From NCBI GenBank assembly GCA_018897435.1, contig JAHIKI010000002.1:1-35471 (forward strand): a DNA stretch of 35,471 bases, in the 5' to 3' direction. This DNA is from Acidobacteriota bacterium. GTDB taxonomy: Bacteria > Acidobacteriota > Aminicenantia > UBA2199. Shown here piece by piece: positions 10,512 through 26,559 of the stretch; the stretch's first letter is position 1; each line of letters starts with the position of its first letter. Both the position numbers and the translations under genes were made by a program. The notes below the pieces were generated by a model, which saw nothing but the letters and a program-made list of their open reading frames with translations, was not told the DNA's origin and did not search any database.

Positions 10512-12635
10512 ATGAAAAAGACACTAATTACCCTTGTGAGCATGTTGCTGCTGTCAGGCGCCTGCTGGTCCGACGACACGGCCAATGAAGTCAAATATTA
10601 TGACAACGCCAAGGTCATCCGCATCAAGAACGTGGATGGCGAAGGTTTTGTCCAGCGTTCCTATGAAGAAGGCAACGAAGAAGCCACCGCCAACCTGCCC
10701 CTGTTTGAAAAAGATACGGTGGGCACAACGGCAGGCCGGCTGGGAATTTACCTGGGCCGGTTGAACTACCTGCGCCTGGACGCAGACAGCATCATCGTGC
10801 TGGAAAAGATTCCCCAACTGCGCAAAACCGACCTGAACGTGCGTGTGGAACGGGGTAGCATCTATCTGGACATTGAAAACCTGGACAACGAAAAAGACAT
10901 TGAAATTCAAACGCCGGACTGCGGCATCTTTATTCTGGACAAAGGGGTTTACCGCGTCAACGTCAGCGAGAACGCCCAGACCGAAGTGCTTGTCATGGAG
11001 GGCATCGCCGAAGTGGCCGGCCAGGAAAGCAGCCGCAACGTCAGGGAAAACCAGAAGATCGTCATGTCCGGCGGCGATATCGAGGAGAGGCCCTATTATT
11101 TCTACGCTTCGGAAAAAGACGATTTTGACCTCTGGAATGAAGCCCAGAACAGCAAGCTGAGCTATGCCCGCTACGGCACCTCCAGATATCTGCAGAACGG
11201 CTACGAAGATACCGAATACGAAATGTCCCGTTCCGGACGCTGGTCCTACATGTCCGAGTTCAACTCCTATGCCTGGATACCTTACAATACCCATGCCAAC
11301 TGGATGCCTTACGCCAACGGACGCTGGGTGTGGAATCCTTATTACGGTTACACCTGGATATCCTACGACACCTGCGGCTGGTTCACCCACCACTATGGCC
11401 GCTGGCATTGGAGTTATTCTTTCGGCTGGCACTGGCTCCCCGGCTACCATTGGTCGCCGGCCTGGGTCTCCTGGTTCGGCAACGACCATTATTACGGCTG
11501 GTCCCCTCTCAGCTGGTGGAACCGGCCGGTCGTCATCATCAACAACCGTTGGGACCGCAATTACGATTACCGCCGCGGCATCCCGCACCATTCGCGTTCC
11601 ACCATCATCATCCGCAAAAACGAACTCTCGGCCGCCAACGCGCAGCGCGTGGCCCTGAAAAAAGGCTCGCTGGGACAGAACGCCGGCCAGACCATCGCCT
11701 ACCGGGGCACAGCGCCCAGCGACCGGCCGGCCCTGAATAAGGTCACGGTGATCAACGCCAATGGCAAAGCCGTGACCTATAAGCAGAACGGCATTGTTTC
11801 CGGAGAAAAGTACCGGGTCACCAGCCCTGCTTCCGCAAACGGCAAGGCCGCTGTCTACAAATACAACCCTGCCGCCGACGGCAACAAAACTGGCAGCGCC
11901 TACAGGAAAAAGAGCACTGAAGGTTCCAGCCCATCGGCAAGCGGCACCTATTTCAGGTCCAAGAGCAGCAATGCCTCCCGCAGCGGTACCAGCACCCGTG
12001 TTTCTTCCTCCGGCTCCAGCGCCGAAAAATCTTCCGGGAAAACCAGTTACCGCAGCAAATCCGGAAGCTCGAGCAAAGCCAAAGCCTCATCTTCTTCCTC
12101 ATCCAGCAGTTCGAGCGGAACGAAAAAAAAGAAAAAGGGTGAGCCCGGATATTTGTCTGACAACAGTTACAAAAATTCGACAGGTGAGACGGCTGCCGCC
12201 GCACCGTATGCCCGCACCCAGAGCAAATATTCTGCAAGCACCAGCACTGCCTACCGCTATTCCAGCCGGGTTTATGAATCAAAACTCAAAAGCGCGACCA
12301 CTTCATCAACTTATACGACCTTCAGGGCCCCAACCCAGTCAAGGCCCGGTCTAGCTGCAAATGCGACCAGTCCATTTTCCAGCCGCAAAACCAGCGGCGG
12401 CAGTGCTGACTATTCTGCGCGCGGTACCAACACCCGTTACCGGGCGCCGGCCTCAACCGCAAGCCTTGGCTACAAAAGCAGCTCTGCCGCGAGATCTTAT
12501 TCCCCAACCAGCAGCGGCCAATCATCCAGATCCAGCAGCGCCTACCGCTCCGGCTCCTCTGCTTCGACTGCTTCCCGCAGCACGGCATCATCTTCTTCGC
12601 AAAGTTCAAGCGGAACGGCGGTAAAGAAAAAATAA
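10512..12635 (+). CDS. Exported FecR-like/DUF6600 protein with long Ser-rich tail
   Basis: 707 residues. A signal peptide (1-20) ends in SGAC, so it could be a lipoprotein, though the -3 residue is Ser rather than Leu. Residues about 30-200 look like a FecR-type beta domain (VERGSIYLDIENL, IEIQTPDCGIFIL, GVYRVNV, VMEGIAEVAG). Residues about 225-345 are a Trp/Tyr/His/Gly-rich repeat of the DUF6600 kind with WxPYxNGRW-like units. From about 400 to the end the protein is low-complexity Ser/Thr/Lys/Arg/Tyr, including a run of Ser near codons 526-536. The tail is probably disordered and surface-located. GAGGAGG lies 5 bases before the ATG. TTGGCA (10472) and TAAAAT (10493) form only a weak promoter. 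No catalytic motif is visible and the function is unknown. Confidence 0.82.
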   Translation: MKKTLITLVSMLLLSGACWSDDTANEVKYYDNAKVIRIKNVDGEGFVQRSYEEGNEEATANLPLFEKDTVGTTAGRLGIYLGRLNYLRLDADSIIVLEKIPQLRKTDLNVRVERGSIYLDIENLDNEKDIEIQTPDCGIFILDKGVYRVNVSENAQTEVLVMEGIAEVAGQESSRNVRENQKIVMSGGDIEERPYYFYASEKDDFDLWNEAQNSKLSYARYGTSRYLQNGYEDTEYEMSRSGRWSYMSEFNSYAWIPYNTHANWMPYANGRWVWNPYYGYTWISYDTCGWFTHHYGRWHWSYSFGWHWLPGYHWSPAWVSWFGNDHYYGWSPLSWWNRPVVIINNRWDRNYDYRRGIPHHSRSTIIIRKNELSAANAQRVALKKGSLGQNAGQTIAYRGTAPSDRPALNKVTVINANGKAVTYKQNGIVSGEKYRVTSPASANGKAAVYKYNPAADGNKTGSAYRKKSTEGSSPSASGTYFRSKSSNASRSGTSTRVSSSGSSAEKSSGKTSYRSKSGSSSKAKASSSSSSSSSSGTKKKKKGEPGYLSDNSYKNSTGETAAAAPYARTQSKYSASTSTAYRYSSRVYESKLKSATTSSTYTTFRAPTQSRPGLAANATSPFSSRKTSGGSADYSARGTNTRYRAPASTASLGYKSSSAARSYSPTSSGQSSRSSSAYRSGSSASTASRSTASSSSQSSSGTAVKKK

Positions 12636-12720: not shown

Positions 12721-14844
12721 TCAGATGTTTCCCTTCCAGGCAGCCAGCGCTTTTTCAGCTATCTTTATTTGTTCGGAGCTGAGTTCAGCGGCATGGCGGT
12801 TGACCGCAGTTTCCATGTTGGCCAATGCCTGCTCGATCTTGCCGTTCTTGGCCAGGACCAGGGCGTAATTGAAGAAGAACTTCCCCTCCGGCTTGATGGC
12901 CGCGGCCCGGGCCAGCATCTGCTCGGCATCGGCCATGCTCCCGTAACGCGTGTTCAGCAGCGCCACCTTCATAAGCAGTTCGGGCTGGCCGGCGGCCTCT
13001 TCGTTTTCCAATAACTGGTTGTAAGCAGCCACGGCCTGCGCGTACTTTTGGATGGTGATCAGCAATTCAGCGTACTTGATGCGCAGGGACACGTTCTGCG
13101 GTTCGATGTCCAGCGCCTGGGCGAAATATTCGACCGCCTCAGCAGTGCGGTTCTGCTTCTCCCTGATCTCTCCCAGCAGGATCGTGACCCGGGTATTGCG
13201 CGGATTTTTGTCCAGGATCTCGCGGCAGCGGCTTTCGGCCCGGTCGTACTTTTTCATGTCGAACAAGGCCAGGGCCAGGATCTGTTTGAAGTTTTCGACA
13301 TCCGGGAAATCGTCGATCGCCTGTCGCAGGCAATTCAAGGCCGCGTTGTAGTTGCGCTTGGACATGTATATCTTGTATTTCAGGTTGTATACGTGCGGCA
13401 TCTTCAGCCCGGGGTTTTCGGCCAGCAATCGCTGCAAGTCGCTTTCAGCTGCCGCTATCTTTTTCTGGCCGATCAACTGGCTGATCTCCCTCAGGCGCGC
13501 GTCGATCAGCACCCCTTGCTTGGGATCGAGCGCCGTGGCTGCCTGGCTGGAAAAGGCCGAAATGTAACCCAGCGCCTGCAGCTGCTCCTTGTCGCCGGCG
13601 CTCAGTTCGCGGCGCGTCTCGCCACTGCTCTGGGAATGGTCGGCAATGAACTTGGCCAGGCGCTTGTCCAAGTTGCGGGCAAGCAAGTTTTTTCTCAAAA
13701 ACAAATTCAGTTTTTCAGCGGGGTCGACGCCCAGATCGTACAACTCGGGATCGGGCAGCGACACGTACTTGTAATCCTGGTGCAAGAGCCCGGTCAGCGG
13801 CGCCCAATTCATCTCCTCACGGCCGTACAGGCTTTCGAAGTAAATTATCCGCTCCTCTTTCTCGGAGCCACCTTTGAGCAGGGAGCGGAAGCTGCGTCCC
13901 TGTACCGCCCGCGGAATCTCGAAACCCAGCAGGTCCAGCACCGTGGGCATGACATCGACCAGTCCCACCCTGGCAGCCACCGTCCTGGCCTTGCCAAAAA
14001 GTTTGGGAGCGTAAAAGATCAGCGGCACCTTCAGGGCCTCCTCGTAGCAAAAGATGCCGTGGCCCTGTTCCACATGTTCGCCGAAGGCTTCGCCGTGGTC
14101 ACCGGCGATGACCACCAGGGTGCGCTCCAGCAGTCCGCGTTCGCGCAAGGACTGGATGACACGGCCGACCCAGACGTCGGTATAGGCGATCTCACCGTCG
14201 TACAATCCTTTCGGGTTTGCAGGATAACGTTTGGCGAATTCCAGCGGCGGCCGGTAAGGGGTGTGGGGATCGTAAAAATGGAGCCAGTAAAAAAATCTCC
14301 GCCCATCGTTCTGGCCCAGCCAGGCGCTGAATTTTTCAAAGACCTGCTCGGCCGGGATCTCAGACTTGTAGTGACGGATCATTTCGTGGGTGTCCAGGCT
14401 GTCGTCGTAGAGTGAAAAGCCCTGGTTGACCCCGAATTTGGATAACAGGACAAATGAGGCGACCACCGCCCGCGTGTCGTAGCCCCGGTCTTGCAGAACT
14501 TCGGCCAGGGTGATTTCGTTTTCCGGCAGAAAATAACTGCCGTTGTTGCGCACATTGTTGGCGATTGGGTAGCGGCCGGTGAAAAGGGCGGCGTGCGAGG
14601 GCAGGGTCAAAGGCACGGGGGCGTAGCCATTCTCAAAGCGGATCCCCTGCCTGGCCAGGAGATCGATGTTTGGCGTTTGCGCCGTTTTGTAGCCATAGGC
14701 CCCGATATGGTCGGCCCGGGTCGTGTCCAGGGTGATGATGAGAACATTCCATGCCGTCCGGGTTCCGCCGCGGCGCTGCAGGAAAAAAAGACCGCTGGCG
14801 GCCAGCAGCAACAGCAGGATGACCAATAATTTTCTTTTGCTCAT
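12721..14844 (-). CDS. Membrane-anchored sulfatase-fold hydrolase with TPR tail, paralog A
   Basis: 707 residues. A signal anchor (5-23) puts the enzyme outside the inner membrane. Residues 32-415 form an alkaline-phosphatase/sulfatase-fold domain with NVLIITLDTTRADHIG (metal Asp40), FYDPHTPY and GDHGEAFGEH (D249, H250). The position of the formylglycine Cys/Ser is Thr80 in VPLTLPSHAALFTG, and the following Arg is His84. That argues against a formylglycine sulfatase and for a Thr-nucleophile phospho- or sulfo-hydrolase/transferase. Residues about 450-700 are TPR repeats. It lies 49 bases after paralog B and is probably in its operon. GGAG precedes the ATG by 10 bases. Confidence 0.85.
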   Translation of the reverse strand: MSKRKLLVILLLLLAASGLFFLQRRGGTRTAWNVLIITLDTTRADHIGAYGYKTAQTPNIDLLARQGIRFENGYAPVPLTLPSHAALFTGRYPIANNVRNNGSYFLPENEITLAEVLQDRGYDTRAVVASFVLLSKFGVNQGFSLYDDSLDTHEMIRHYKSEIPAEQVFEKFSAWLGQNDGRRFFYWLHFYDPHTPYRPPLEFAKRYPANPKGLYDGEIAYTDVWVGRVIQSLRERGLLERTLVVIAGDHGEAFGEHVEQGHGIFCYEEALKVPLIFYAPKLFGKARTVAARVGLVDVMPTVLDLLGFEIPRAVQGRSFRSLLKGGSEKEERIIYFESLYGREEMNWAPLTGLLHQDYKYVSLPDPELYDLGVDPAEKLNLFLRKNLLARNLDKRLAKFIADHSQSSGETRRELSAGDKEQLQALGYISAFSSQAATALDPKQGVLIDARLREISQLIGQKKIAAAESDLQRLLAENPGLKMPHVYNLKYKIYMSKRNYNAALNCLRQAIDDFPDVENFKQILALALFDMKKYDRAESRCREILDKNPRNTRVTILLGEIREKQNRTAEAVEYFAQALDIEPQNVSLRIKYAELLITIQKYAQAVAAYNQLLENEEAAGQPELLMKVALLNTRYGSMADAEQMLARAAAIKPEGKFFFNYALVLAKNGKIEQALANMETAVNRHAAELSSEQIKIAEKALAAWKGNI

Positions 14845-14893
14845 GCTTGATTCAACTCCGTTTTCCCTGCCAAGGGCTCAAAGGCGGCCCCGG

Positions 14894-16987
14894 TCATTGC
14901 CCGGCCGCTGCGGCAAGCAGGCGCCGCAACACGGCGCGGTCTGAAACAGAAAGCAACTGAAGGAATTGCGTCTGCAGCCGCTGCAGGTAATCGTTGGCCT
15001 CGGCTTTTCGTCCCGCGGCAATCAATGTGACCGCGATATTGAAATAGGCATCTATAAAATCGGGTTGTAACTCTAAAACTTTCTGCCAATCCGCGAGCGC
15101 CGCTTCAACCTGCCCGGTAAATTTGCGGGCGGCGCCCCTGCCGTTGTAGGCCGCGACCGATTTTGCATCCAACTCAATGGCCTTGTTGAAAGCGCCGACA
15201 GCCTTTTCACGCAGGGTCTCGTCTTTGGCCGCCACATAGCGGGCCAGGAACAAGGCGCCCAGGTTGGCGTAAACCATGGCATTTTGCGGATCCAGGGCCA
15301 GGGCTTTTTCGTAAGCCTCATAAGCCTTGCCGAAATTTTTCATGCGGAAAAAAGCGACCCCCAGGTAATTCCAATTGGCCGAATCGGCCGCATCAGCGGC
15401 CAGAACCTCTTTGAGTAAAACCACGGCTTCAGCACTGCGGTTTATTTCGGTTAAAAAAACGCCCAATTTCGACTTCAATTCCATACTGTCCGGCTTCCTT
15501 TGCAGCCCCTGGCGCAGGATATCCACCGCAACCTGCGGCTGGCGCAGATAATGCAGGGTATCGGCCAAATGCGCATAGGAACCTATGTCGTCCGGTCTGC
15601 TGGCGAGCACCTGCTCGTACAATTCCCGGGCTTCACGGTATTTTTTCTGGTTGAACAATTGGTTGGCGCTGCGCAGTTTGTTCTGGATGGGCAGCAGAGT
15701 TTTCAAATCATCGTCACGGGTGAAAACCGCTTTGGCCTCAACCTTGATCCCGGCCAAATACCCGAATGAGCGCAGCCGCCGTAATGTTTCCGCCGGCAAG
15801 GTCAGGCGCGCCGCGGCCGTTTCCGTTCCCGACATCTTGTTTTTCAATTCCGATAATTGCCGGTTCAGATCGGAAAGCTTGCGCGAGGAAATGATGTTCT
15901 TGCTTTCGGCAAAGTCCCGTTCGATATCGTAAAGTTCCTTGATGGGCTGGTCGATATATTTCAATTTGCCGTTAATGAACCCCTCCAGGGGCGCCCAGCC
16001 TTTGCTTAAAAAGGGACCTTTGGATTCAATATAGACCGGTCTTTCCGCTTCTGTCCCGCCGTTGAGCAGGGGCAGCAGTGACCGGCCCGCGAGCCCGGGC
16101 GGAGGAGCGCTGCCTAAAATATTGCAAACAGTGGGGAAAATATCAACATGGGACACAAGGGTCTTTATGGTCCTGGGCTGTGCCCCTGGCCGGCAAATGA
16201 TCAGGGGGATATGGATCGTGGAATTGTAGGCGAAAAAGCCGTGCTCGAATTCACCATGTTCGCCAAGGGCTTCACCGTGATCAGCGGTTATGATGATCAG
16301 AGTGGAAGCCAGGCGGCCCGATTTTTCCAGAAATGAAAACAATTTGCCAAGTTCGGCGTCCACATAGGCGATCTCACCGGCGTAGGGATCGGCGCTGTAG
16401 AGCTTGTCGAAGGGCGCCGGCGGAGCATAGGGAAAATGGGGGTCCCACAAATGCAGCCAGCAAAACCATTCGCCTTTCCGGCCCGCGATCCAATCCTGCG
16501 CCAGGGGGACGATTTCCGCGGCCAGGAAAGTGTCCTGGCTCAGGGGTTCACGATAAAGATCGAATCCCTGATCCAATCCGAATGTCTGGTCCAGCACAAA
16601 AGAACTTACAAAAGCGGCCGTGGCGTAGCCCTGGCCCCGCAACTGCTCGGCCAGGGTGAAAAAGCGTTTGTCGAGACAGTATCCGTTATTATCGGCAACG
16701 CCGTGATACAAAGGCGTGTGGCCGGTAAAGATATTGGCATGAGCGGGCAGGGTCATGGGCGTATGCGAGAAAGCACGGGTAAAAACCGAGCCGCGGCCGG
16801 CCAGGCGGTCGATATTGGGAGTCAACTGCCTCACCCCATAAACGCCGATGTGGTCGGCCCGGGTGGTGTCAAGGGTGATCAGCAGGACATTGCTAGCCTT
16901 CTCGCTTGCTTTGCCGCTTGCCGCGACAAGGGGCAGGAGCAAAAATCCCCATGCTGCCAATAAAAGAAAAAGCGGTTTTCTCTTCAT
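14894..16987 (-). CDS. Membrane-anchored sulfatase-fold hydrolase with TPR tail, paralog B
   Basis: 697 residues with the same layout as paralog A. An N-terminal signal sequence (about 5-23, AAS cleavage possible) is followed by NVLLITLDTTRADHIG (D40), Thr79 in TPMTLPAHANIFTG at the nucleophile site, WDPHFPY, and ADHGEALGEH (D236, H237). At least five TPR-like units fill residues about 430-670 (for example YREARELYEQVLASRPDD and FGKAYEAYEKALALDPQN). No Shine-Dalgarno precedes the ATG. A TGCTATAAT extended -10 box ends 7 bases upstream, so the message is probably leaderless. It is the first gene of a two-gene unit with paralog A. Its substrate cannot be read from sequence. Confidence 0.85.
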   Translation of the reverse strand: MKRKPLFLLLAAWGFLLLPLVAASGKASEKASNVLLITLDTTRADHIGVYGVRQLTPNIDRLAGRGSVFTRAFSHTPMTLPAHANIFTGHTPLYHGVADNNGYCLDKRFFTLAEQLRGQGYATAAFVSSFVLDQTFGLDQGFDLYREPLSQDTFLAAEIVPLAQDWIAGRKGEWFCWLHLWDPHFPYAPPAPFDKLYSADPYAGEIAYVDAELGKLFSFLEKSGRLASTLIIITADHGEALGEHGEFEHGFFAYNSTIHIPLIICRPGAQPRTIKTLVSHVDIFPTVCNILGSAPPPGLAGRSLLPLLNGGTEAERPVYIESKGPFLSKGWAPLEGFINGKLKYIDQPIKELYDIERDFAESKNIISSRKLSDLNRQLSELKNKMSGTETAAARLTLPAETLRRLRSFGYLAGIKVEAKAVFTRDDDLKTLLPIQNKLRSANQLFNQKKYREARELYEQVLASRPDDIGSYAHLADTLHYLRQPQVAVDILRQGLQRKPDSMELKSKLGVFLTEINRSAEAVVLLKEVLAADAADSANWNYLGVAFFRMKNFGKAYEAYEKALALDPQNAMVYANLGALFLARYVAAKDETLREKAVGAFNKAIELDAKSVAAYNGRGAARKFTGQVEAALADWQKVLELQPDFIDAYFNIAVTLIAAGRKAEANDYLQRLQTQFLQLLSVSDRAVLRRLLAAAAGQ

Positions 16988-16994
16988 GCTGCTT

Positions 16995-17003
16995 ATTATA
17001 GCA
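16995..17003 (-). promoter_or_regulatory. Extended -10 promoter of the paralog B/A operon, predicted leaderless
   Basis: On the minus strand TGCTATAAT contains a perfect TATAAT (16995-17000) with the extended TGn. No good -35 is present, which suits an extended -10 promoter. Transcription should start at about 16988, next to the ATG at 16987. Confidence 0.55.
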
Positions 17004-17018
17004 CAGCCAAAACAGTAT

Positions 17019-17053
17019 AAAAAAAAACCCCCTCCCCGAGTTCGGGGAGGGGG
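17019..17053 (-). terminator. Strong terminator of the TonB-dependent receptor gene
   Basis: CCCCCTCCCCGA (17028-17039) and TCGGGGAGGGGG (17042-17053) form a perfect 12-bp stem. On the minus strand it is followed by nine U, giving a clear rho-independent terminator 50 bases after the receptor stop. It separates the receptor from the downstream sulfatase-fold operon, which therefore needs its own promoter. Confidence 0.9.
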
Positions 17054-17102
17054 TCTCTTTTATCGGGTTTGATCGCTCAAACCCCAGTTTGGAGTTGCAG
17101 GT

Positions 17103-20027
17103 TTAGAAGTTGACGCGGATGCCGAACTGGAAGCAGCCCGGGTTGGTGACCACCTGGACCTCGTCCTTGTACGCGCCGATCAGGTTTTCCAGTTTCAGGG
17201 TGGCCTGCGCGTTGGTCACGTTGTACCAGTCGACGAACAGGGTGGCGCTGGTGGTGTCGGAAATTTTGAACACCTTTTCCAGGCCGAGGTTGAGGTAAGT
17301 GAAGTTCGGCAGCCGGTCATCGCCGAACTTCTTGCCGCCTTCATAGAAAAAGTTATAGCCCAGGCCGCCGGGGAGATAGACCCGGACCCTGTAGGGGATG
17401 ACGTAACCTTCGCGGGATTGCAGGACCGCCGACAGGTTCAGCCCCCAGGGCAGCTGGTAGAGGCCGGAGAGCTTGAACATCCAGCGCGAGTTCACGTAGA
17501 TGCCGGTATAGCCGGAACCGCCCGATTGTGGAGCGACCACGGCCTCGTTGTAGAAGTCGAAATTGTTCTGGTTGAAGTGTTCGCTCTTGTCCATGTGGCT
17601 TGTCCAATCCTGGTAGGTGAAGGAGGCGTCGGCCATCCACTTGCTGGACAGCTTCTTGGTCAAGACCAGTTCCACGGCCATGTACTTTTCGTAGTCATTT
17701 TCGTAGTTGGTGAAATAGGTACCGACCGGTACTACCTTGCGCAGCCACCTGGGCACCTTGGTGTCGCCAACCGTGACGGTGCCGCTCTCGTACCAGTTGG
17801 CCGCGGTTTCGATCGAGTCGTTGGGCATGACGCCGATTTCCCGGCCCAGATTGTGGCGCTTCTTGTAGAAACCGGTGACGCCGATGGCGAGGTCTTCGCC
17901 CAGGGCCTTTTGAAAGGAGAGGGTCAGCTCGTCGAGCAGCGGTGTGTTGTAATTGTTGTCATATTGATTTTTCCTGATGCCCTTGCTGTAATCGATCCGT
18001 TGGGTATTGGTCCAGGATTGATAGCTGCCGGAGTAGCCGGGACCATAATAATAGTAGGCCCAGTTGAAGACCTCGTTGTACTGGGGAATGTCGTCGAGGT
18101 TGGCGTCCCACCAGTAGAAGTCGGTCTCGCGGTAGGGGAAGAGGGCGGAAGCCAGGCTGTTGCCGCTCTGCGAACCGTAGCGGGCCAGGGACAGCTTCAA
18201 GACATTTTTACCGTCGCCGCTGATGTCATAGGTCAGCGAAAATCTGGGAGAGATCGTCGACCAGGCCACCGGCGCGTCCATGGCCGGAACCATCATATCG
18301 CCCATGATATCGGTCACGATTTTTTCATTGTGATGGGGTGAACCCGGCTCATACCAGGTAAGCGCTTTCTGCAGGCCGCCGTTCAGGGCGCCGCTTTCCT
18401 TGTCGTAGCGCAGGCCGAGGTTGACATTCAGTTTGCCGAAGCTGGCGGTATCAGACAAAAAGAACGACATTCTGTTGAAGTTGACGTCGTAATTGGCGTT
18501 GGGAACGAACCAGACTTCGCCCATATTGAGGGGCATACCGTAGGCATCCAAATACCCTTGCCCATACTTGACGGCGATCCTCTTGTTGGGATAGAGGGTC
18601 TGGGTGGTGGTGTCGGCGTTGACATAATCCACGCCGAAGCGGATCTCGTGGTCTCCGCCGAGGATGTTCTCGGCGAAGTAGTTGCCGTTCAATGACAGGT
18701 TCAGCTGGTTGCGGTTGGTGATGTAATGGTAGCAGTTGTTCAGCCATTGATTAGGCGAGAAAATATAGAGCCATTCGGCGCCCACGTGGTCGCCGTCAGC
18801 ATTGATCGTGCCGCCGCGGGGGTCGAGGACGAAGCCGCCGTCGGTGTAGGCCACCTTGGCGTCGAGCATCAGGTTGCCCATGATCTGCTGGATGGCGCCG
18901 TAATAGACCCAGCCCGGGCCGTCCTGGTCGAACAGCGAGCCGTTGTTCTGCTGGGCCGAGGAGAGGACCGTGCGGCCCCACTTCTTTTTGGCATCGTGGG
19001 AGAGGTTCAGGTCGCCGCTGGTGTTGCCGAACTGGAAGTTCAGCTTGGCGTAGCCGGAGAGCAGCCAGGTGGCATCTTCGTCATTGGTGATTTTCCGGGC
19101 GTGGATGTCCTGAATAGCGTAGGAACCCATGAAGAAGATATGATCCTTGAGGACCGGGCCGCCGAAGTTCACGCCGTACTGGAAAAGGCGGTTGATGCCC
19201 GGGATGACGAAGTTCTTGCGGGTCTGGTAGGGTGTCAGGTCCTGCTTCATTTCCCAGGCCTTGTCCTGCACGTACAGGTGGAAGTCACCGGCAAAGCGGT
19301 TGCCGGCGCGCTTGGAAACGAAGTTCAACTGCACGCCGCCGGTCTGGGCCGTGATGTCGTTGGCGCCCACGGTGATCTGCATCTCTTCGTAAGCGTTCAT
19401 GTTCAGGTAGGCGGGGGCCGCGCCGATGGCGGAGTTGTCGGTGATGTTGGCGCCGTCCACGTTCCAGGTGGTGTCGTCGCCGTCAGCGCCGCCGGATGTG
19501 AAGCTGGACTGCTGGCCGGACTCGGCACCGCCGATGTCGACGCGATCCATCATCATACCCGGAGCCAGCGCCATGACAGTGAAGGGGTTGCGGGCGGTAG
19601 GCAGCGATTGGATCATTTCCTTGGAAACGTTCATGCCCACGGTGGTCTTGCGGGTATCGACCACGCCGGCCTTGGCGGTAACGATCACCTCTTCCTGGAT
19701 GGTGGTCGTTTCCATGGGCACGGTCAGGGTGACGTTCTTGCCGAGGGACAGGCGGATGCCCTTGCGGATAACGGTCTTGAAACCTTCGAGCTCGAACTTC
19801 AGCTCGTAGTTGCCGGGAGACAATTTCAGGAACCTGAAGTTGCCTACCTCGGAAGTGACCGCCGTAATCTTGCCGCCGACGTCACTGGTGAGGGTGATCG
19901 TCACGCCGGGAATGGAGGAACCGTCAGGAAGCACAACCGTACCGTAAATGTCGGCCAGTTGCACTTGGGCCACGGCGACTGAACTGATCAGTGCCAGGGC
20001 TGCAAAAAGTAGCACGAGTTTTTTCAT
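17103..20027 (-). CDS. TonB-dependent outer-membrane receptor with carboxypeptidase-regulatory-like N-terminus
   Basis: 974 residues. A signal peptide (1-20, cleavage after SVAVA) is followed by a CarboxypepD_reg-like beta-sandwich (about 24-108, IYGTVVLPDGSSIPGVTITL). A TonB-box-like EEVIVTAK comes next, then the plug (about 120-235, with SLPTARNPFTVMALAPG) and a long beta-barrel ending in GIRVNF, a C-terminal Phe outer-membrane signal. It should import a ligand too large for porins using TonB energy. The ligand is unknown, but three sulfatase-fold enzymes flank the gene, which suggests a scavenged anionic glycan or phospho/sulfo-ester. AGGAGG lies 5 bases before the ATG and a strong terminator follows. 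Confidence 0.92.
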   Translation of the reverse strand: MKKLVLLFAALALISSVAVAQVQLADIYGTVVLPDGSSIPGVTITLTSDVGGKITAVTSEVGNFRFLKLSPGNYELKFELEGFKTVIRKGIRLSLGKNVTLTVPMETTTIQEEVIVTAKAGVVDTRKTTVGMNVSKEMIQSLPTARNPFTVMALAPGMMMDRVDIGGAESGQQSSFTSGGADGDDTTWNVDGANITDNSAIGAAPAYLNMNAYEEMQITVGANDITAQTGGVQLNFVSKRAGNRFAGDFHLYVQDKAWEMKQDLTPYQTRKNFVIPGINRLFQYGVNFGGPVLKDHIFFMGSYAIQDIHARKITNDEDATWLLSGYAKLNFQFGNTSGDLNLSHDAKKKWGRTVLSSAQQNNGSLFDQDGPGWVYYGAIQQIMGNLMLDAKVAYTDGGFVLDPRGGTINADGDHVGAEWLYIFSPNQWLNNCYHYITNRNQLNLSLNGNYFAENILGGDHEIRFGVDYVNADTTTQTLYPNKRIAVKYGQGYLDAYGMPLNMGEVWFVPNANYDVNFNRMSFFLSDTASFGKLNVNLGLRYDKESGALNGGLQKALTWYEPGSPHHNEKIVTDIMGDMMVPAMDAPVAWSTISPRFSLTYDISGDGKNVLKLSLARYGSQSGNSLASALFPYRETDFYWWDANLDDIPQYNEVFNWAYYYYGPGYSGSYQSWTNTQRIDYSKGIRKNQYDNNYNTPLLDELTLSFQKALGEDLAIGVTGFYKKRHNLGREIGVMPNDSIETAANWYESGTVTVGDTKVPRWLRKVVPVGTYFTNYENDYEKYMAVELVLTKKLSSKWMADASFTYQDWTSHMDKSEHFNQNNFDFYNEAVVAPQSGGSGYTGIYVNSRWMFKLSGLYQLPWGLNLSAVLQSREGYVIPYRVRVYLPGGLGYNFFYEGGKKFGDDRLPNFTYLNLGLEKVFKISDTTSATLFVDWYNVTNAQATLKLENLIGAYKDEVQVVTNPGCFQFGIRVNF

Positions 20028-20129
20028 TCGTACCTCCTAAAATTTTAGAGACACTTTATCTAAGCAATAACCATGCCATTTGCAGCATGCCCTTAATACA
20101 GGCATTGACAAGCGGAAGCCGGGGCCGAA

Positions 20130-20176
20130 ATTCAAATATTTGGATTTAGCGAGTGAGCGAATTCAATTATTTGAAT
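20130..20176. promoter_or_regulatory. Two near-palindromic ATTCAA-N4-TTGAAT-like boxes, candidate operator
   Basis: ATTCAAATATTTGGAT (20130-20145) and ATTCAATTATTTGAAT (20161-20176) are each nearly self-complementary. They are 31 bp apart, three helical turns. They lie between the divergent receptor and paralog C genes, 28 bp before the paralog C -35 box. They could bind one regulator of both genes, or be the arms of an inserted repeat. Confidence 0.45.
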
Positions 20177-20203
20177 AGCCTCCCGCCTGGCCGCGCCATA
20201 TTC

Positions 20204-20232
20204 TTGACTTCACAGCCGCCAAAAACTATAAT
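20204..20232 (+). promoter_or_regulatory. Consensus promoter of sulfatase-fold paralog C
   Basis: TTGACT (20204-20209) and TATAAT (20227-20232) are spaced 17 bp apart. Transcription should start near 20239, leaving a 15-base leader with AAGGGTG before the ATG at 20254. Confidence 0.75.
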
Positions 20233-20253
20233 GATTTTCAAGGGTGAAATACA

Positions 20254-22398
20254 ATGGCCAAAACTCAAAATAAAATCATTCCCCGCCAGCCACTTACCCG
20301 GAAAATGTTTTTTCTGCTGCTCGTGATCGTTCTAATCATTGCTTTTTTTATATTCTACCGCCGCCCCCAGGAAGTAAAGAGGGATCCCCAGAGCAATGTC
20401 CTGCTCATTACCCTGGACACGACCCGCGCCGACCGCCTGGGCTGCTCCGGCTACACCCCCGCCCAAACACCGAACCTGGACCGCCTGGCCGCGGCAGGGG
20501 TCAGCTGCGAAGCCGCTTACAGCCCGGTGCCCCTGACCCTGCCGGCCCACTGCACCATGCTCAGCGGCTTGTATCCCCCGGCCCACAAGGTGCGCAACAA
20601 CGGCAGCTATTTCCTCCCCGAACCCGTGCTTACCCTGGCCGAGATGCTGGGCCAAAACGGCTACCAGACTTCCGCCTTTGTCTCTTCCTTTGTCCTGGAT
20701 TCCCGTTTCGGTCTCGGCCAGGGTTTCACTGTTTTTAATGATGAGTTTGCCGGCGGCGGGGTCAAGACCTACAAATCGGAAAGAGATGCTGCCGCCGTCT
20801 TCGCCGCTTTTTCCCGCTGGTTCACCGGGCGCGGCGCCGGAAAATTTTTTTCCTGGGTCCATTTTTTTGACCCGCATGCCCCCTACGCTCCCCCCGAACC
20901 ATTCCGCAGCGCTTTCAGCGACAATCCCTATGACGGTGAGATCGCATATATGGATCATTATATTGGCGCCATCCTCGACCTGCTCAAAGAAAAACACTTA
21001 ATGGAAGACACCCTGGTCGTCATCGCCGGCGACCACGGCGAAGCGTTCGGAGAGCACGGCGAAACCGGACACCAGGTTTTCTGCTACGAAGAGAACCTGC
21101 GCGTGCCGCTGATCTTCCACGCTCTAAAACGCCTGCCGAAAAACATGCGCCTGAAGCGGAAAGTCGGTTTGACCGATGTTATGCCCACCATTCTTGATTT
21201 TTTGCAAATCCCCGTCCCTGCCGCGCTCCAGGGCCGGTCGCTGCTGCCGGCCATGCAAAAAATGGACACGGCCGAACCGGACCTGTACCTGGAAAGTTTT
21301 TTTGCCCACGAAGCCTTCAATTGCGCCCCGATCCAGGGCATCATCCAGAAAAACTACAAATATCTCGATCTGCCCAAGCCCGAATTGTACGATCTGCTGC
21401 AAGATCCGGGAGAAAGAAAAAACCTTGTCTCCGGCTCAGCTGTTCTGGGTCAAAAAATGAAAACTAGCCTGAACGAACTTACCCGCCGCCTGGGCGGCAG
21501 TAACATGCAGGGCCAACGCCGCATGACCGACGCGGAAAAAAATACCCTGGCCTCACTTGGCTATATCACTTCGGCCCCGGCCGCACAAAGCGCCGGTCCG
21601 CTGCCCGATCCCAAGGACAAGATCGCCGGCTGGCAGGTATTCAACCGCGGCGCCGAGCAGGCGGCCAACGGTCAAACCGGCGCAGCCGCAGCCAGCCTGC
21701 TCCAGGCCATCGAACTCATTCCCGATTACGCCGGATCTTACACCATATTGGCCAATGTCTATTTTAAAAACGGCCAGGGTGACAAGGCCCTGGCCCTGTT
21801 CCGCGACGCCTTGATCCGCATCCCGACCGATGCCACCCTGAAAACCGAGTACGCGGGCCTACTGATAAAAATGAACCGCCTTGACCAAGGCATGACCCAA
21901 TTGCAGGAATTGACAAAAACGGATTTGGTCGACAAAAAAGCCTTCGTCTATTCCCAGATGGGAAGCATTGCGGAAACACAGGGCAAGTCGCCCCAGGCCA
22001 TAACTTATTACCGCCAGGCTCATGAAAACGAACCCGACAACGATGGCTACGCCCGCAAGCTGGCTTACCTCCTGCACCGGACCAACCGCTTTGCCGAGGC
22101 CTTGGCAATATACCGCAGCCTGGAACAAAAACAGCCGGATGACATCCAGTTGATCCGCGACATGGCTATCGCCTACGCCCAGCTGAACGATCTCGAACAA
22201 GCCCGCAGCTATTTCACCAAGGCGCTGCAGCGTTCGCCCGACGCAAACCTGCATTACAATTTCGCGTTGCTGCTGGCCCGCCAGGGCCAATACGCCGAAG
22301 CCGCGGCCATGATGGAAAAATTCCTGATCGCAGTTCCGGCCGCAGCGGCCCAAGCCCAGGCGGCCCGCCGCTACCTTGCCGACTGGCGCAGCCGCTGA
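20254..22398 (+). CDS. Membrane-anchored sulfatase-fold hydrolase with TPR tail, paralog C
   Basis: 714 residues. Signal anchor at about 18-35. The sulfatase-fold domain (48-435) has NVLLITLDTTRADRLG (D55), Thr95 in VPLTLPAHCTMLSG at the usual formylglycine site, FDPHAPYAPP, and GDHGEAFGEHGE (D260, H261). TPR repeats run from about 465 to 705. It is closest to paralog A: both share PVPLTLP, VRNNGSYFLPE, FCYEE and ASLGYI/ALGYIS segments. It has its own strong promoter and is transcribed away from the TonB-dependent receptor. The Thr again argues against a formylglycine sulfatase. Confidence 0.86.
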   Translation: MAKTQNKIIPRQPLTRKMFFLLLVIVLIIAFFIFYRRPQEVKRDPQSNVLLITLDTTRADRLGCSGYTPAQTPNLDRLAAAGVSCEAAYSPVPLTLPAHCTMLSGLYPPAHKVRNNGSYFLPEPVLTLAEMLGQNGYQTSAFVSSFVLDSRFGLGQGFTVFNDEFAGGGVKTYKSERDAAAVFAAFSRWFTGRGAGKFFSWVHFFDPHAPYAPPEPFRSAFSDNPYDGEIAYMDHYIGAILDLLKEKHLMEDTLVVIAGDHGEAFGEHGETGHQVFCYEENLRVPLIFHALKRLPKNMRLKRKVGLTDVMPTILDFLQIPVPAALQGRSLLPAMQKMDTAEPDLYLESFFAHEAFNCAPIQGIIQKNYKYLDLPKPELYDLLQDPGERKNLVSGSAVLGQKMKTSLNELTRRLGGSNMQGQRRMTDAEKNTLASLGYITSAPAAQSAGPLPDPKDKIAGWQVFNRGAEQAANGQTGAAAASLLQAIELIPDYAGSYTILANVYFKNGQGDKALALFRDALIRIPTDATLKTEYAGLLIKMNRLDQGMTQLQELTKTDLVDKKAFVYSQMGSIAETQGKSPQAITYYRQAHENEPDNDGYARKLAYLLHRTNRFAEALAIYRSLEQKQPDDIQLIRDMAIAYAQLNDLEQARSYFTKALQRSPDANLHYNFALLLARQGQYAEAAAMMEKFLIAVPAAAAQAQAARRYLADWRSR

Positions 22399-22485: not shown

Positions 22486-23130
22486 ATGAAAATATTTCTG
22501 GACACGGCCAACATAACTGAGATCAAAAAAGGTCTGGCCTTCGGCGTCATTGATGGCGTCACCACCAATCCCAGCCTGGTCGCCAAGGAACAGCGGGAAT
22601 TCATCCCCCTAATCAAAGAGATCACCGCCGTCATCCCCGGACCGGTTTCGGTCGAAGTCACGGCCTGCAAACCCGAAGAAATGATCGCCCAGGCTGAAAA
22701 ATACGCGGCCATCGCCGCTAACGTGGTCATCAAGGTGCCCATCAACCTGGAAGGTCTGCAGGTGGTCAAGGCCCTGGCTGGCCGCGGCATCAAGACCAAT
22801 GTCACCCTGATCTTCTCCCCCTCCCAGGCCCTGCTGGCCGCCAAGGCGGGAGCGACCTATGTGTCGCCCTTCGTCGGCCGCATCGACGACATTTCCGGCG
22901 ACGGCATGGCACTGGTCGAGGACATCGCCCTTATCTACGACAACTACGACATTGCCACCGAGATCATCGTTGCCTCGGTGCGCCACCCGCTGCATTTCGT
23001 GCAGGCGGCCAAGATCGGGGCCGACGTGGCCACCATCCCCTTTGCCACCCTGGCCCAGCTGCTCAACCACCCCTTGACCGCCAGCGGCATGGAACGCTTT
23101 TTAAAGGATTGGCAAAAGGTCAAGCCCTGA
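22486..23130 (+). CDS. fsa: Fructose-6-phosphate aldolase / short-type transaldolase
   Basis: 214 residues, the length of the small decameric FSA/TalC group. [14 protein letters not shown] and [12 protein letters not shown] are the family's first strands. The Schiff-base Lys lies in [45 protein letters not shown] and the C-terminal [15 protein letters not shown] complete the TIM barrel. It could be a true transaldolase of the pentose phosphate pathway or an aldolase forming fructose-6-phosphate from dihydroxyacetone and glyceraldehyde-3-phosphate. The two are hard to separate by eye. The ATG at 22486 has AAAGG nearby. Its 3' end overlaps the open frame of the tamB-like gene. Confidence 0.92.
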
Positions 23131-26100
23131 CGGATGAAGAAAAAAATAAAAATCCTAATCAGTTTTTTTTTATACTTTTCTTTTTGGGAGGCGCCTATTA
23201 CGCCGTCAAATACTACATATACCATTTGATCGTTTCCGGCAGCCGCGTCGACATCCGCTTCAGTGATCTGCGCCTCTCCCTTTTCCCCCTGGGGCTTGAG
23301 ATCCGCGATATCAAAAATTTCCCGATCAAAAACGAAAACCTGGTCTCGTTCTCCGCGGTCAATGTTTACCTGCCGCCAACCTCGCTGTTCATGAAAAAAA
23401 AGGCGATCAGCATTGAGATCGAAAAACCGTTTTTCGTTCTCAACGACGAATTGCTGAAAAGCAAGACCGACGACAAAGCGCTCGGTTCAGCCTTTACCAT
23501 CAACCGCGTCAGCATCCGCCACGGCGAACTCGTCTACAAGGGCAAGGACGTGCAGGTGCAAATGCTCGATTTCAACTTGCAGTCAAGGATCATGACCGCC
23601 GGACTGTCCATGCGCTTGGATTCACCGCATTTGAAAGTCACCATTCCCGTCAGCGGTGAAGCGGTCACGCTGGAAGGCAACCTGACCGGCGATGTCCGCC
23701 GGCAGGGGACTTCCTGGCGGATCAACCAGTTCGTCTGGCAGACCCGGGAGGTTCTCTTCAACCTTAACGGCCGCATCCTGAAAGACGGTTCCTACTATTT
23801 CAATTCGTTCGCCCAGGGCAATCCCGAAAATATCCTGCGCCCGCTGTTGGGAGAATTGACCATCAAGGGCCTGGCCTATGTAAACGCCAAGATCGCCAGG
23901 AATGTGAAAAACAAGGTGCAGATCAAGACCGATTTCACATCGCCTTCCTTCCTGATCATGGAAAATTCCGGCAGCAACCTCTCCGGACATTTGAACTGGA
24001 ACAGCCAGAGCCGCAGCCTGGACCTGGAAGCCGCGTTCGACACACCACTGGCAAGGTCCTCGCTACGTATCGGCAGCAAAAGCGGGGAAACCAATATCGC
24101 GGTCAGGGACATTCCGGCCGCGTACATATCCCGCCTATTGGAAATTGAAGGCGACGCTCCCTTGGCCGGGATCATCACCAACGGCGCCTTGCAGATAAAC
24201 AGTGAATTCCTCCGCGGCCGGGCCGAACTGGATGCTGGCCCTTCCCATTCTTTCAGCCAGCCCTTCGTGGCCAGAGGCACCATTGATTTCCTGCGTGAAA
24301 AGAAAATAAAACAGACCACGTTTTCCGGACAGCGGCTGCAGTTCAACGGCGGGCAGGTCAGCATCAGCGGCAAGACCAATTCGCTGGCCAGGACAACGAA
24401 CATTAAAATTAGCGCCGAATTGGCGAACCTGGAAAACATGACGGCCTACTCAGCCTACTACCTGGACATCGATCTGCTGCCGTGGAAGCTGAGCCGGGGG
24501 AGCGGGTCGTTTCATCTAGATCTGGACAAAGGGCCGGGCCACAAGCAGATCGACAGCCGCTTTACACTTGCCAACTTCCTAGCCAACCAGCAGGGGATCT
24601 CATCGCTGCAGGGCGAAGTCCGCAGCACGCCGCTGCTAAGCCGGGGAGAATTCCTTATCAGCGCACCCGACCTGAGCTGCCGGGCCGAACTGAACATCGC
24701 CGCGCAAAAGACCAGCATCCGCTTCCGGGACGTGGCAGGCGAAGCGCAAAAGATCATGAAGATCCTGGGCATGGATCTAAACTTGCGGGGCAGGATCAGC
24801 GGTGATTTCACCTACAGCTCGGGCCGGGCCTTGCCACGACCGGAACTGTTCGGTTCCCTAACGGCACCGCGGCTGAATTTTATGGGATACGCACTCACAC
24901 AGATGAAGAGCATCCTGCGCTCCAATCTGCAAAATATAACCTTGAGCGGTTTGGAATTTCAATACAAGGGCGGCCGGGCCCATGCCGAGGTCAGCATCGA
25001 TTACGGGCAGAAAAAGTTCGACCTGCAGGGCCGCATCGACGGCATGGACGTCGCCCGATTGCACGGAGAATTCAGCGGCCGGGCCGACCTGGAGATCGAC
25101 GGCCGCGGGGAATTCCTTAAAGATCCGCTGGCGTTATCCTACCGATTCAGCAAAATTCATTTTTACCGCGACCGCGAATTCAGCGTCAAAGGCAGCGCCA
25201 AAATATTAACCGATTTTTCCGATTTCACCCTGAACACCAGTGGTGAAGTGCTCAACCAGGACGGCGTTTCCCCGTTTTCGATCGATATCAGCCGCAAAGC
25301 TTCGCGCTATTCCGGGTCATTCAATTTGAACCTGATGGATCTGAACCTGCTGATTCCCTGGAAAAACAATGCCGGCAGCATGCGTTTATTGGGACAAATT
25401 TATTCGGACAGCAGCGGCATCATCAACAGCCGGGGAGTGGCCATTTTTTCCGGCCAGACCCTCTCCTTGCCGAACTTCTCCCATTCACTGGACAATTTTC
25501 AGGGAACAATCACTTTTGTCAATAAGAATTTTATCCTGCAGTCGCTGCGCGGTGAAATGGGCGGCGGCACGGTGGAAGGCAATGGACGCCTGGTCATCGG
25601 CCCCAGCAGTTTGCAAAGCATGACCTTCAACCTCCAGGGAAAAGACCTGCGCCTTTATCCCATGGACCGTGTCTCCTGCCTAGTCGATCCCGACCTGACC
25701 CTGAAATACCGACAGAAAAAATTGCTGCTGTCCGGAACCCTGGTCTTCCAGTCGGTCGATTGGCAAAGAGAGATCGATGAACGCCTCATCTTTAACACCC
25801 GCTCGGAACTGTCAACCGCCGAATCAAAGATCCAGGAAATGCTGCAGCTGGATATTGAGATGAACAGCGAAAATATCCTGATGAGCAATTCCTTGGGCCG
25901 CGTCAAAGGCAAATTCAAGTTGCGGCTGACCGGCAATGCCAATTTCCCCATTTTAAGCGGGACCTGCGAAGGCAGCCAGGGAGAGATCTATTTTTCCGAC
26001 CGTTCCTTCAACCTGCTTAAAGCCAAACTGGTTTTCAAAAACAATTTTTTCATCGATCCGCTGATCCAGGTCGAATCGGAAGCGTTCATCCAGAATTACC

Positions 26101-26558
26101 GCATCCGCTTCGACATCCGCGGCAGCGTCTCACGCGCCAAACCCGAACTGGTTTCCTCGCCGCCGTTGCCGCCCCAGGATATCCTGGCCCTGGTCTCTTT
26201 GGGCGAGGGGTTTAAAAGAACGGGTTCGGCGGAACTCAGCTCGCAACTGGGCAGTACGGCCATGGTCACCACCAAGCTGACCGAAGAGATCAAGAAACGG
26301 GCCGACAAGCTGTTGGGCATCAACCTGCTGCGCATCGATCCCATCCTCTCCGGTCAATCGGAACTGGACACTTCGCGGCTGACCATCGGCAAAACCATCT
26401 CCAAGGATCTGATCGTCGTCTACTCCACCAACCTGTCCACGTCGCGCCAGGAAATCCTCTACATGCAATACCAACTGTCCCCGGCCATCTCCCTGATCGC
26501 CATGAGAAATGAAGAAGGGCGCTACAGTCTCGACCTGCGCCTGCGCACCCGGCGCTGA
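23109..26558 (+). CDS. tamB: TamB-like (DUF490) envelope lipid-transfer protein
   Basis: 1149 residues as an open frame. A short N-terminal membrane anchor ([20 protein letters not shown]) is followed by a long beta-rich AsmA/TamB-like repeat body and a C-terminal DUF490 domain ending with [27 protein letters not shown]. The family bridges inner and outer membrane and moves lipid or assists barrel assembly. The start is doubtful. The frame begins at a TTG inside the upstream gene with no ribosome site. A much better start, ATG at 23134 ([12 protein letters not shown]), is in another frame and would join this one if the T9 run at 23163-23171 had one more T. It is followed 1 base later by an Omp85 gene, the usual TAM partner. 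Confidence 0.82.
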
Positions 26559-26559
26559 A

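Follow-up and report, generated by a model that had tools for sequence, protein, structure and literature searches.

Three proteins encoded around a TonB-dependent-receptor-like gene in the window (the whole stretch of DNA that we analysed, 35,471 nucleotides from an Acidobacteriota bacterium) join a sulfatase-fold catalytic domain to a TPR tail and carry threonine at the position of formylglycine in sulfatases. With moderate confidence, we take them for single-span enzymes of the alkaline-phosphatase superfamily that face the periplasm and would act on a phosphomono- or phosphodiester rather than on a sulfate ester through a phospho-threonine. The annotation of such TPR-tailed proteins as sulfatases is probably wrong. 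The domain order, the residue set, the position of the family outside the Cys/Ser clade and its gene neighbourhood are described below as they can be read from sequence.

The locus and its proteins

The host is a Ca. Aminicenantes-like draft genome of 2.19 Mb on 105 contigs, 60 % complete. The features of the locus are the following.

12721..14844, minus strand: P0001, 707 aa, with a sulfatase-fold catalytic domain (aa 30-430) between an N-terminal hydrophobic segment and a TPR tail
12745..13497, minus strand: TPR tail of P0001 (approximate), from Pfam and the predicted model
14059..14100, minus strand: P0001 D249-H250-G-E...H262, predicted metal ligands and the His replacing the sulfatase Lys
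14605..14607, minus strand: Thr80 codon of P0001, formylglycine position, counted from the translation and controlled by alignment column
14894..16987, minus strand: P0002, 697 aa, with an anchor or signal peptide, a catalytic domain (Thr79) and a TPR tail
16751..16753, minus strand: Thr79 codon of P0002, counted from the translation
16991..17003, minus strand: extended -10-like box (approximate) just upstream of the P0002 start, with similar boxes in L011 and L014
17020..17061, minus strand: 19-pair terminator-like hairpin in the receptor/P0002 gap, with a similar one in L011 and L014
17103..20027, minus strand: P0003, 974 aa, TonB-dependent-receptor-like, with CarboxypepD_reg, OMP_b-brl_4 and a weak Plug match (Pfam)
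20204..20232, plus strand: sigma-70-like promoter upstream of P0004, by an 11/12 consensus match only
20254..22398, plus strand: P0004, 714 aa, with a signal-anchor, a catalytic domain (Thr95) and a TPR tail
20536..20538, plus strand: Thr95 codon of P0004, counted from the translation

The earlier note had described three sulfatase-fold/TPR paralogs around a single receptor, anchored to the inner membrane, with Thr at the formylglycine position and the metal-binding segments in place. Our analysis recovered all four open reading frames at these coordinates, the paralogs measuring 697-714 aa. The Pfam search matched the three proteins to PF00884 (E-values 2.7e-52, 2.8e-45 and 9.7e-42) and also to PF01663 (Phosphodiest), and behind PF00884 it placed several TPR models over their cut-offs in each, in agreement with the TPR fusion first described. 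Helix pairs are seen in the tail in an AlphaFold model. The best named match of P0001 comes from a Ca. Aminicenantes MAG (93 % identity). PF00884 has 14 matches in the host genome, where P0011 is a fourth TPR-tailed paralog. PADLOC returned matches at the TPR level only.

A hydrophobicity scan gave one N-terminal hydrophobic window each in P0001, P0002 and P0004. P0001 and P0004 are plausibly anchored in the inner membrane; in P0002, the segment (LVAASGKAS) could equally well be a cleaved signal peptide, and there this part of the earlier description does not hold firmly. A polytopic N-terminal membrane domain, as in EptA and LtaS, is absent from all three. The host genome also encodes two polytopic Thr-type paralogs, P0012 and P0015. 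Since the TPR-tailed proteins lack the domain that these two possess, a lipid donor is less likely for them, and the polytopic Thr-type paralogs (L001:4632-6893 and L004:5947-7986) are the better candidates of this genome for an EptA/LtaS-like lipid-donor transferase.

On one side of the locus lies P0005 (window 10512-12635), a DUF6600 protein with a Ser/Gly-rich tail, which also adjoins the P0001/P0002 pair in L011, L013 and L014. Behind P0004 (window 23109-29295) follow the TamB-like P0006 and an Omp85 protein over the BamA cut-off, P0007; a TamB-like gene likewise comes after the P0004 homolog of L178.

Active site and relationships

Thr80 of P0001 lies in PLTLPSH, Thr79 of P0002 in PMTLPAH and Thr95 of P0004 in PLTLPAH, that is, T-L-P-[S/A]-H replaces the [C/S]xPxR maturation motif in all three proteins. 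Their metal Asp (LDTTRAD) and DHGE..GEH..(G/E)H segments are kept, also as previously noted. Among 10 paralogs of the host genome, the Thr, the metal Asp, the Asp-His pair and two further His are invariant. Non-redundant rows from the retrieved loci, a set that leans to Thr since its rows from outside seven Aminicenantia genomes were chosen by similarity to the query, gave Thr in 119 of 129 cases, a gap in 10 and Cys or Ser in none. The pattern is not due to chance, given this count and the invariance in the ten paralogs. Over the 119 Thr rows, D40, T80, D249, H250, H262 and H194 (P0001 numbering) are nearly invariant.

We aligned reference proteins to a profile built from the ten paralogs. 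At the Thr80 position, 9/9 Cys/Ser reference sulfatases have Cys or Ser and 9/9 Thr references have Thr (EptA, EptB, EptC, LapC, OpgB, two Haladaptatus, Paenibacillus and Rubrobacter proteins, with the EptC, LapC and OpgB rows poorly aligned). In EptA, Asp40, Thr80 and Asp249-His250 are matched by Glu, Thr and Asp-His, and His194 and His262 by the two extra His; in the hhalign comparison, the Thr lands a few residues off EptA Thr280. The Lys/His pair of GKxH was found in 1/144 Thr rows vs 13/16 Cys rows. Column 262, the place of the second sulfatase Lys, holds His in P0001 and Lys in 3/9 Cys/Ser references, most others having it within 1-2 residues. An LxxLGY[ILV] motif close to where the catalytic domain ends is present in 116/144 Thr rows and 0/16 Cys rows; we know of no name for this signature.

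For comparison, choline sulfatase is described with FGly54, Asp14, Asp296, His297, His201, Lys309 and a Lys102/His104 pair (PMC9063841). MCR-1 has a phosphorylated Thr285, Zn on Glu246/Asp465/His466 and conserved His395 and His478 (PMC5031297), the one-to-one equivalence with our proteins being taken from the alignment to EptA and from residue numbering. The sulfatase metal ligands Asp, Asp and His/Asn are kept as judged by sequence alignment, and the fold is kept too. Loss of these ligands, which the earlier note had named as a refuting outcome, was not seen in the alignment. Two AlphaFold models confirm the fold and reproduce the metal site poorly, the pLDDT of the P0001 model falling below 50 at 43-53 and 252-269. 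In the alignment, the residues specific for sulfate are replaced, with the exception of the shared His, while the metal site stays.

Phylogeny had been set beforehand as a test. In a tree of 102 rows, built by a quick method and arbitrarily rooted, the family falls outside the Cys/Ser sulfatase clade (SH-aLRT 98). The rows comprised tail-bearing proteins (30/85: 2 from the window and 28 random), 40 Thr proteins without tail, 15 Cys types and 17 references; the label "TPR" stands for a tail of >180 aa and not for a TPR match row by row. OpgB and P0004 are not in the tree, the P0004 row having been dropped as a duplicate of L018, itself not drawn. In this tree, tail-bearing rows group with Cys/Ser rows (95) and not with EptA; they stand far apart from EptA/B/C, with weak deep forks and flagged long branches. 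The formylglycine sulfatases fall on one branch amid the Thr-type proteins; under the arbitrary root, this topology is compatible with a Cys/Ser nucleophile that arose only once.

By hhalign, the match to S1 sulfatases (E 1.5e-28 over 367 columns) is better than that to EptA/B/C (6e-13 over 264 columns). The fold search gave the best Z, 33-34, for formylglycine sulfatases vs about 30-31 for LtaP; EptA was not among the matches listed, which we regard as neutral. As judged by profile comparison and by fold searches with predicted models, which agree, S1 sulfatases resemble the catalytic domain more closely than EptA/LtaS do.

Distribution and gene neighbourhood

In seven Aminicenantia genomes, PF00884 proteins of any type gave Thr in 66 of 71 rows, five gaps and no Cys or Ser; Thr is therefore present in 66/66 rows that cover the position. 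Of 79 PF00884 matches, 72 were retrieved, the other seven being weak (28.4 bits or less), and reading the motif strings of the Aminicenantia rows disclosed no misaligned Cys case. The same procedure detects Cys types where they are present: it found them in four other Acidobacteriota genomes, and 15 Cys-type proteins were among the 30 loci returned by a five-genome search of the phylum. Two "T" calls of the control genomes (L212 and L215) are misaligned Cys types and were counted in the Cys group.

The catalytic profile matches 41/41 genomes of the set of relatives, the host included, 95/119 genomes of the phylum at E 1e-20 and, at 1e-80, 26/99 genomes of the phylum around a Planctomycetota locus. 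Such counts alone do not reveal whether a TPR tail is present; most of the listed frames are 600 aa or longer. In Acidobacteriota, the Thr-type TPR-tailed family occurs in multiple copies, and Planctomycetota also have it. Because it is multi-copy and widespread, its true reaction deserves to be determined.

Sulfatases in genomes of uncultured Acidobacteriota are taken as a sign of growth on sulfated organics. One paper lists them among the genus-specific proteins of new Acidobacteriota (PMC8528874). Such inferences fail for Aminicenantia if every PF00884 protein of this class is of the Thr type. The core of this warning is not new, since the 2016 SulfAtlas paper already reports Thr in 30/59 seed sequences of PF00884 and the misannotation that follows from it (PMC5066984). 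Our literature search found no description of the TPR-tailed Thr-type family, of its receptor neighbourhood or of the LxxLGY signature. A residue filter (T, H, H vs C/S, R, K, plus GKxH) would make a cheap test for re-annotation.

No anaerobic sulfatase maturase (anSME) exceeded the cut-off in the 16 same-genus genomes searched, including the host (60 % complete). Formylglycine-generating enzymes are expected to carry Cys at the domain end. The FGE-family domain of the host, located in a TPR protein (L016:589-2169), shows no Cys pair there when compared by eye with the FGE motif. Radical-SAM sulfatase maturases over the cut-off were seen in L226 (G034:C22) and L227 (G027:C13), in genomes where we found no Cys/Ser sulfatase, and no sulfatase-profile match lies near these two genes within the retrieved neighbourhood.

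L011 and L014 keep the order receptor, P0002-like gene, P0001-like gene. In both of them and in the window, the receptor/P0002 gap contains a strong terminator-like hairpin together with a -10 box. We considered a receptor-enzyme operon, in view of the conserved order on the same strand, and rejected it because of the hairpin and box between the genes in these three genomes. P0002 and P0001, 49 bp apart, may form one operon. Within window 16985-17110, the extended -10 box lies a few bases before the ATG, and a nearly leaderless transcript is possible.

A receptor was found within 1.5 kb of the query gene in 13/40 loci, vs 2.1 expected from a generously taken receptor density. In Aminicenantia, the count was 10/20 vs 1.1 expected, and outside this class 3/20 vs 1.0 (P 0.07); the P-values are optimistic, since the loci are related to each other. 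As a neighbourhood, the receptor link is significant in Aminicenantia and fails significance outside. A phylum-wide link based on a receptor at ≤1.5 kb in 24/44 loci was discarded, as this count admits any array gene and apparent genome repeats (L014/L180, L013/L179 and L011/G007). The envelope-modifying complex tied to the receptor, suggested in the earlier note, finds no clear support: enrichment is seen in Aminicenantia and is not clear elsewhere, and the terminator and -10 box separate the genes.

A secreted CarboxypepD_reg-TPR protein, which matches the receptor profile and was kept out of the receptor counts, occurs ≤1.5 kb from a tail-bearing gene in 11/44 loci. In the host genome, it (L003:5332-6285) adjoins the fourth TPR-tailed paralog. 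This protein of about 320 aa lies directly beside TPR-tailed sulfatase-fold genes in L164, L163, L166, L149 and others, and shares the type of its N-terminal domain with the receptor.

Proposed reaction and comparison with known systems

For the phosphoester reading that we prefer, we infer phosphorus chemistry, a covalent intermediate and a role of the TPR tail. A metal on Asp40, Thr80, Asp249 and His250 (P0001 numbering) would activate the Thr hydroxyl, which would attack phosphorus to give a covalent phospho-Thr. His194 and His262 may position the leaving group or bind a second metal, and water or a second hydroxyl would then accept the phosphoryl group, by hydrolysis or transfer. The TPR tail could dock a protein substrate or partner. 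We propose a phospho-Thr because in MCR-type enzymes the covalent phospho-intermediate sits on a Thr that is bound to the metal (PMC5031297). According to the SulfAtlas paper, Thr would yield a ketone and cannot become formylglycine (PMC5066984), hence these are not formylglycine enzymes. The view that they are unlikely to be ordinary sulfatases is upheld by the loss of [C/S]xPxR, GKxH and the second Lys and by the position outside the Cys/Ser clade. Counting against a phosphoester, similarity over the whole domain is highest to formylglycine sulfatases, by sequence and by fold.

A broader and rather doubtful idea is a cell-surface module of Acidobacteriota, in a lineage without formylglycine sulfatase, where TPR-tailed Thr phosphotransferases would recognise proteins by the tail and add or remove a phospho-form on the cargo or components of CarboxypepD_reg/beta-barrel receptors and of their CarboxypepD_reg-TPR companion.

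The Thr chemistry of EptA and LtaS had been invoked for these proteins from the start. True transferases of this kind, moving a phosphoethanolamine or phosphoglycerol head group from a membrane lipid to an envelope polymer or receptor cargo, would account for a residue set equal to that of EptA, for the N-terminal hydrophobic segment and for LtaP among the structural matches (Z about 30-31). The likeness to EptA holds for the active-site chemistry only: over its whole length the catalytic domain resembles S1 sulfatases more, and the multi-helix membrane part is missing. With a single hydrophobic segment, separate polytopic Thr-type paralogs (P0012 and P0015) as if that job were taken, a tree that does not unite the family with EptA and an hhalign match weaker to EptA than to sulfatases, we consider such transfer unlikely.

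LapC/YejM is a known regulator with a sulfatase-type fold. This precedent, the TPR tail and the paralog arrays would suit catalytically dead scaffolds whose fold and tail hold a complex together, but the near invariance of D40, T80, D249, H250, H262 and H194 over 119 Thr rows, needless for a dead fold, makes them clearly improbable. Thr-nucleophile sulfatases feeding on sulfated glycans imported by the receptor are most improbable of all: the PF00884 annotation and the S1 sulfatases as nearest relatives by sequence and fold speak for them, against the lost CxPxR, GKxH and second Lys, the lack of an anaerobic maturase over the cut-off in the 16 same-genus genomes and the host FGE-family protein without a visible Cys pair.

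Among known systems, the receptor P0003 can be compared with Oar, which has CarboxypepD_reg plus beta-barrel domains. On these domains we liken it to this TonB-dependent transporter of Myxococcus (PMC6434023); no protease cargo is known for P0003, and its link to the enzymes is one of neighbourhood only. The Thr-type PF00884 members of the SulfAtlas paper (PMC5066984) likewise have Thr for Cys/Ser and are falsely annotated as sulfatases; its account names TXNXE proteins and, as far as it was available to us, is silent on TPR-tailed members and on the genes around them.

The predicted models match LtaP in fold (Z about 30-31, 16 % identity in the structural match), and the proteins differ from LtaS/LtaP by the absent polytopic domain. 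LtaS and LtaP use a Thr nucleophile and a single metal site. With the EptA/MCR phosphoethanolamine transferases, the TPR-tailed proteins have in common the Thr nucleophile, Zn-type ligands (Asp here for Glu) and two extra His, whereas they carry a TPR tail, lack the polytopic membrane domain and lie far away in the tree, whose deep forks are weak. With formylglycine sulfatases (SulfAtlas S1; YidJ, choline sulfatase), the whole catalytic fold is common, including the C-terminal subdomain (SGSH_C match, ELYDLxxDPxExxNL), as are the first metal Asp, the Asp-His pair and His194. In contrast to these sulfatases, our proteins have Thr in place of Cys/Ser, and His has taken over from both the Arg of CxPxR and the second Lys; they are devoid of GKxH and possess the TPR tail and the LxxLGY signature.
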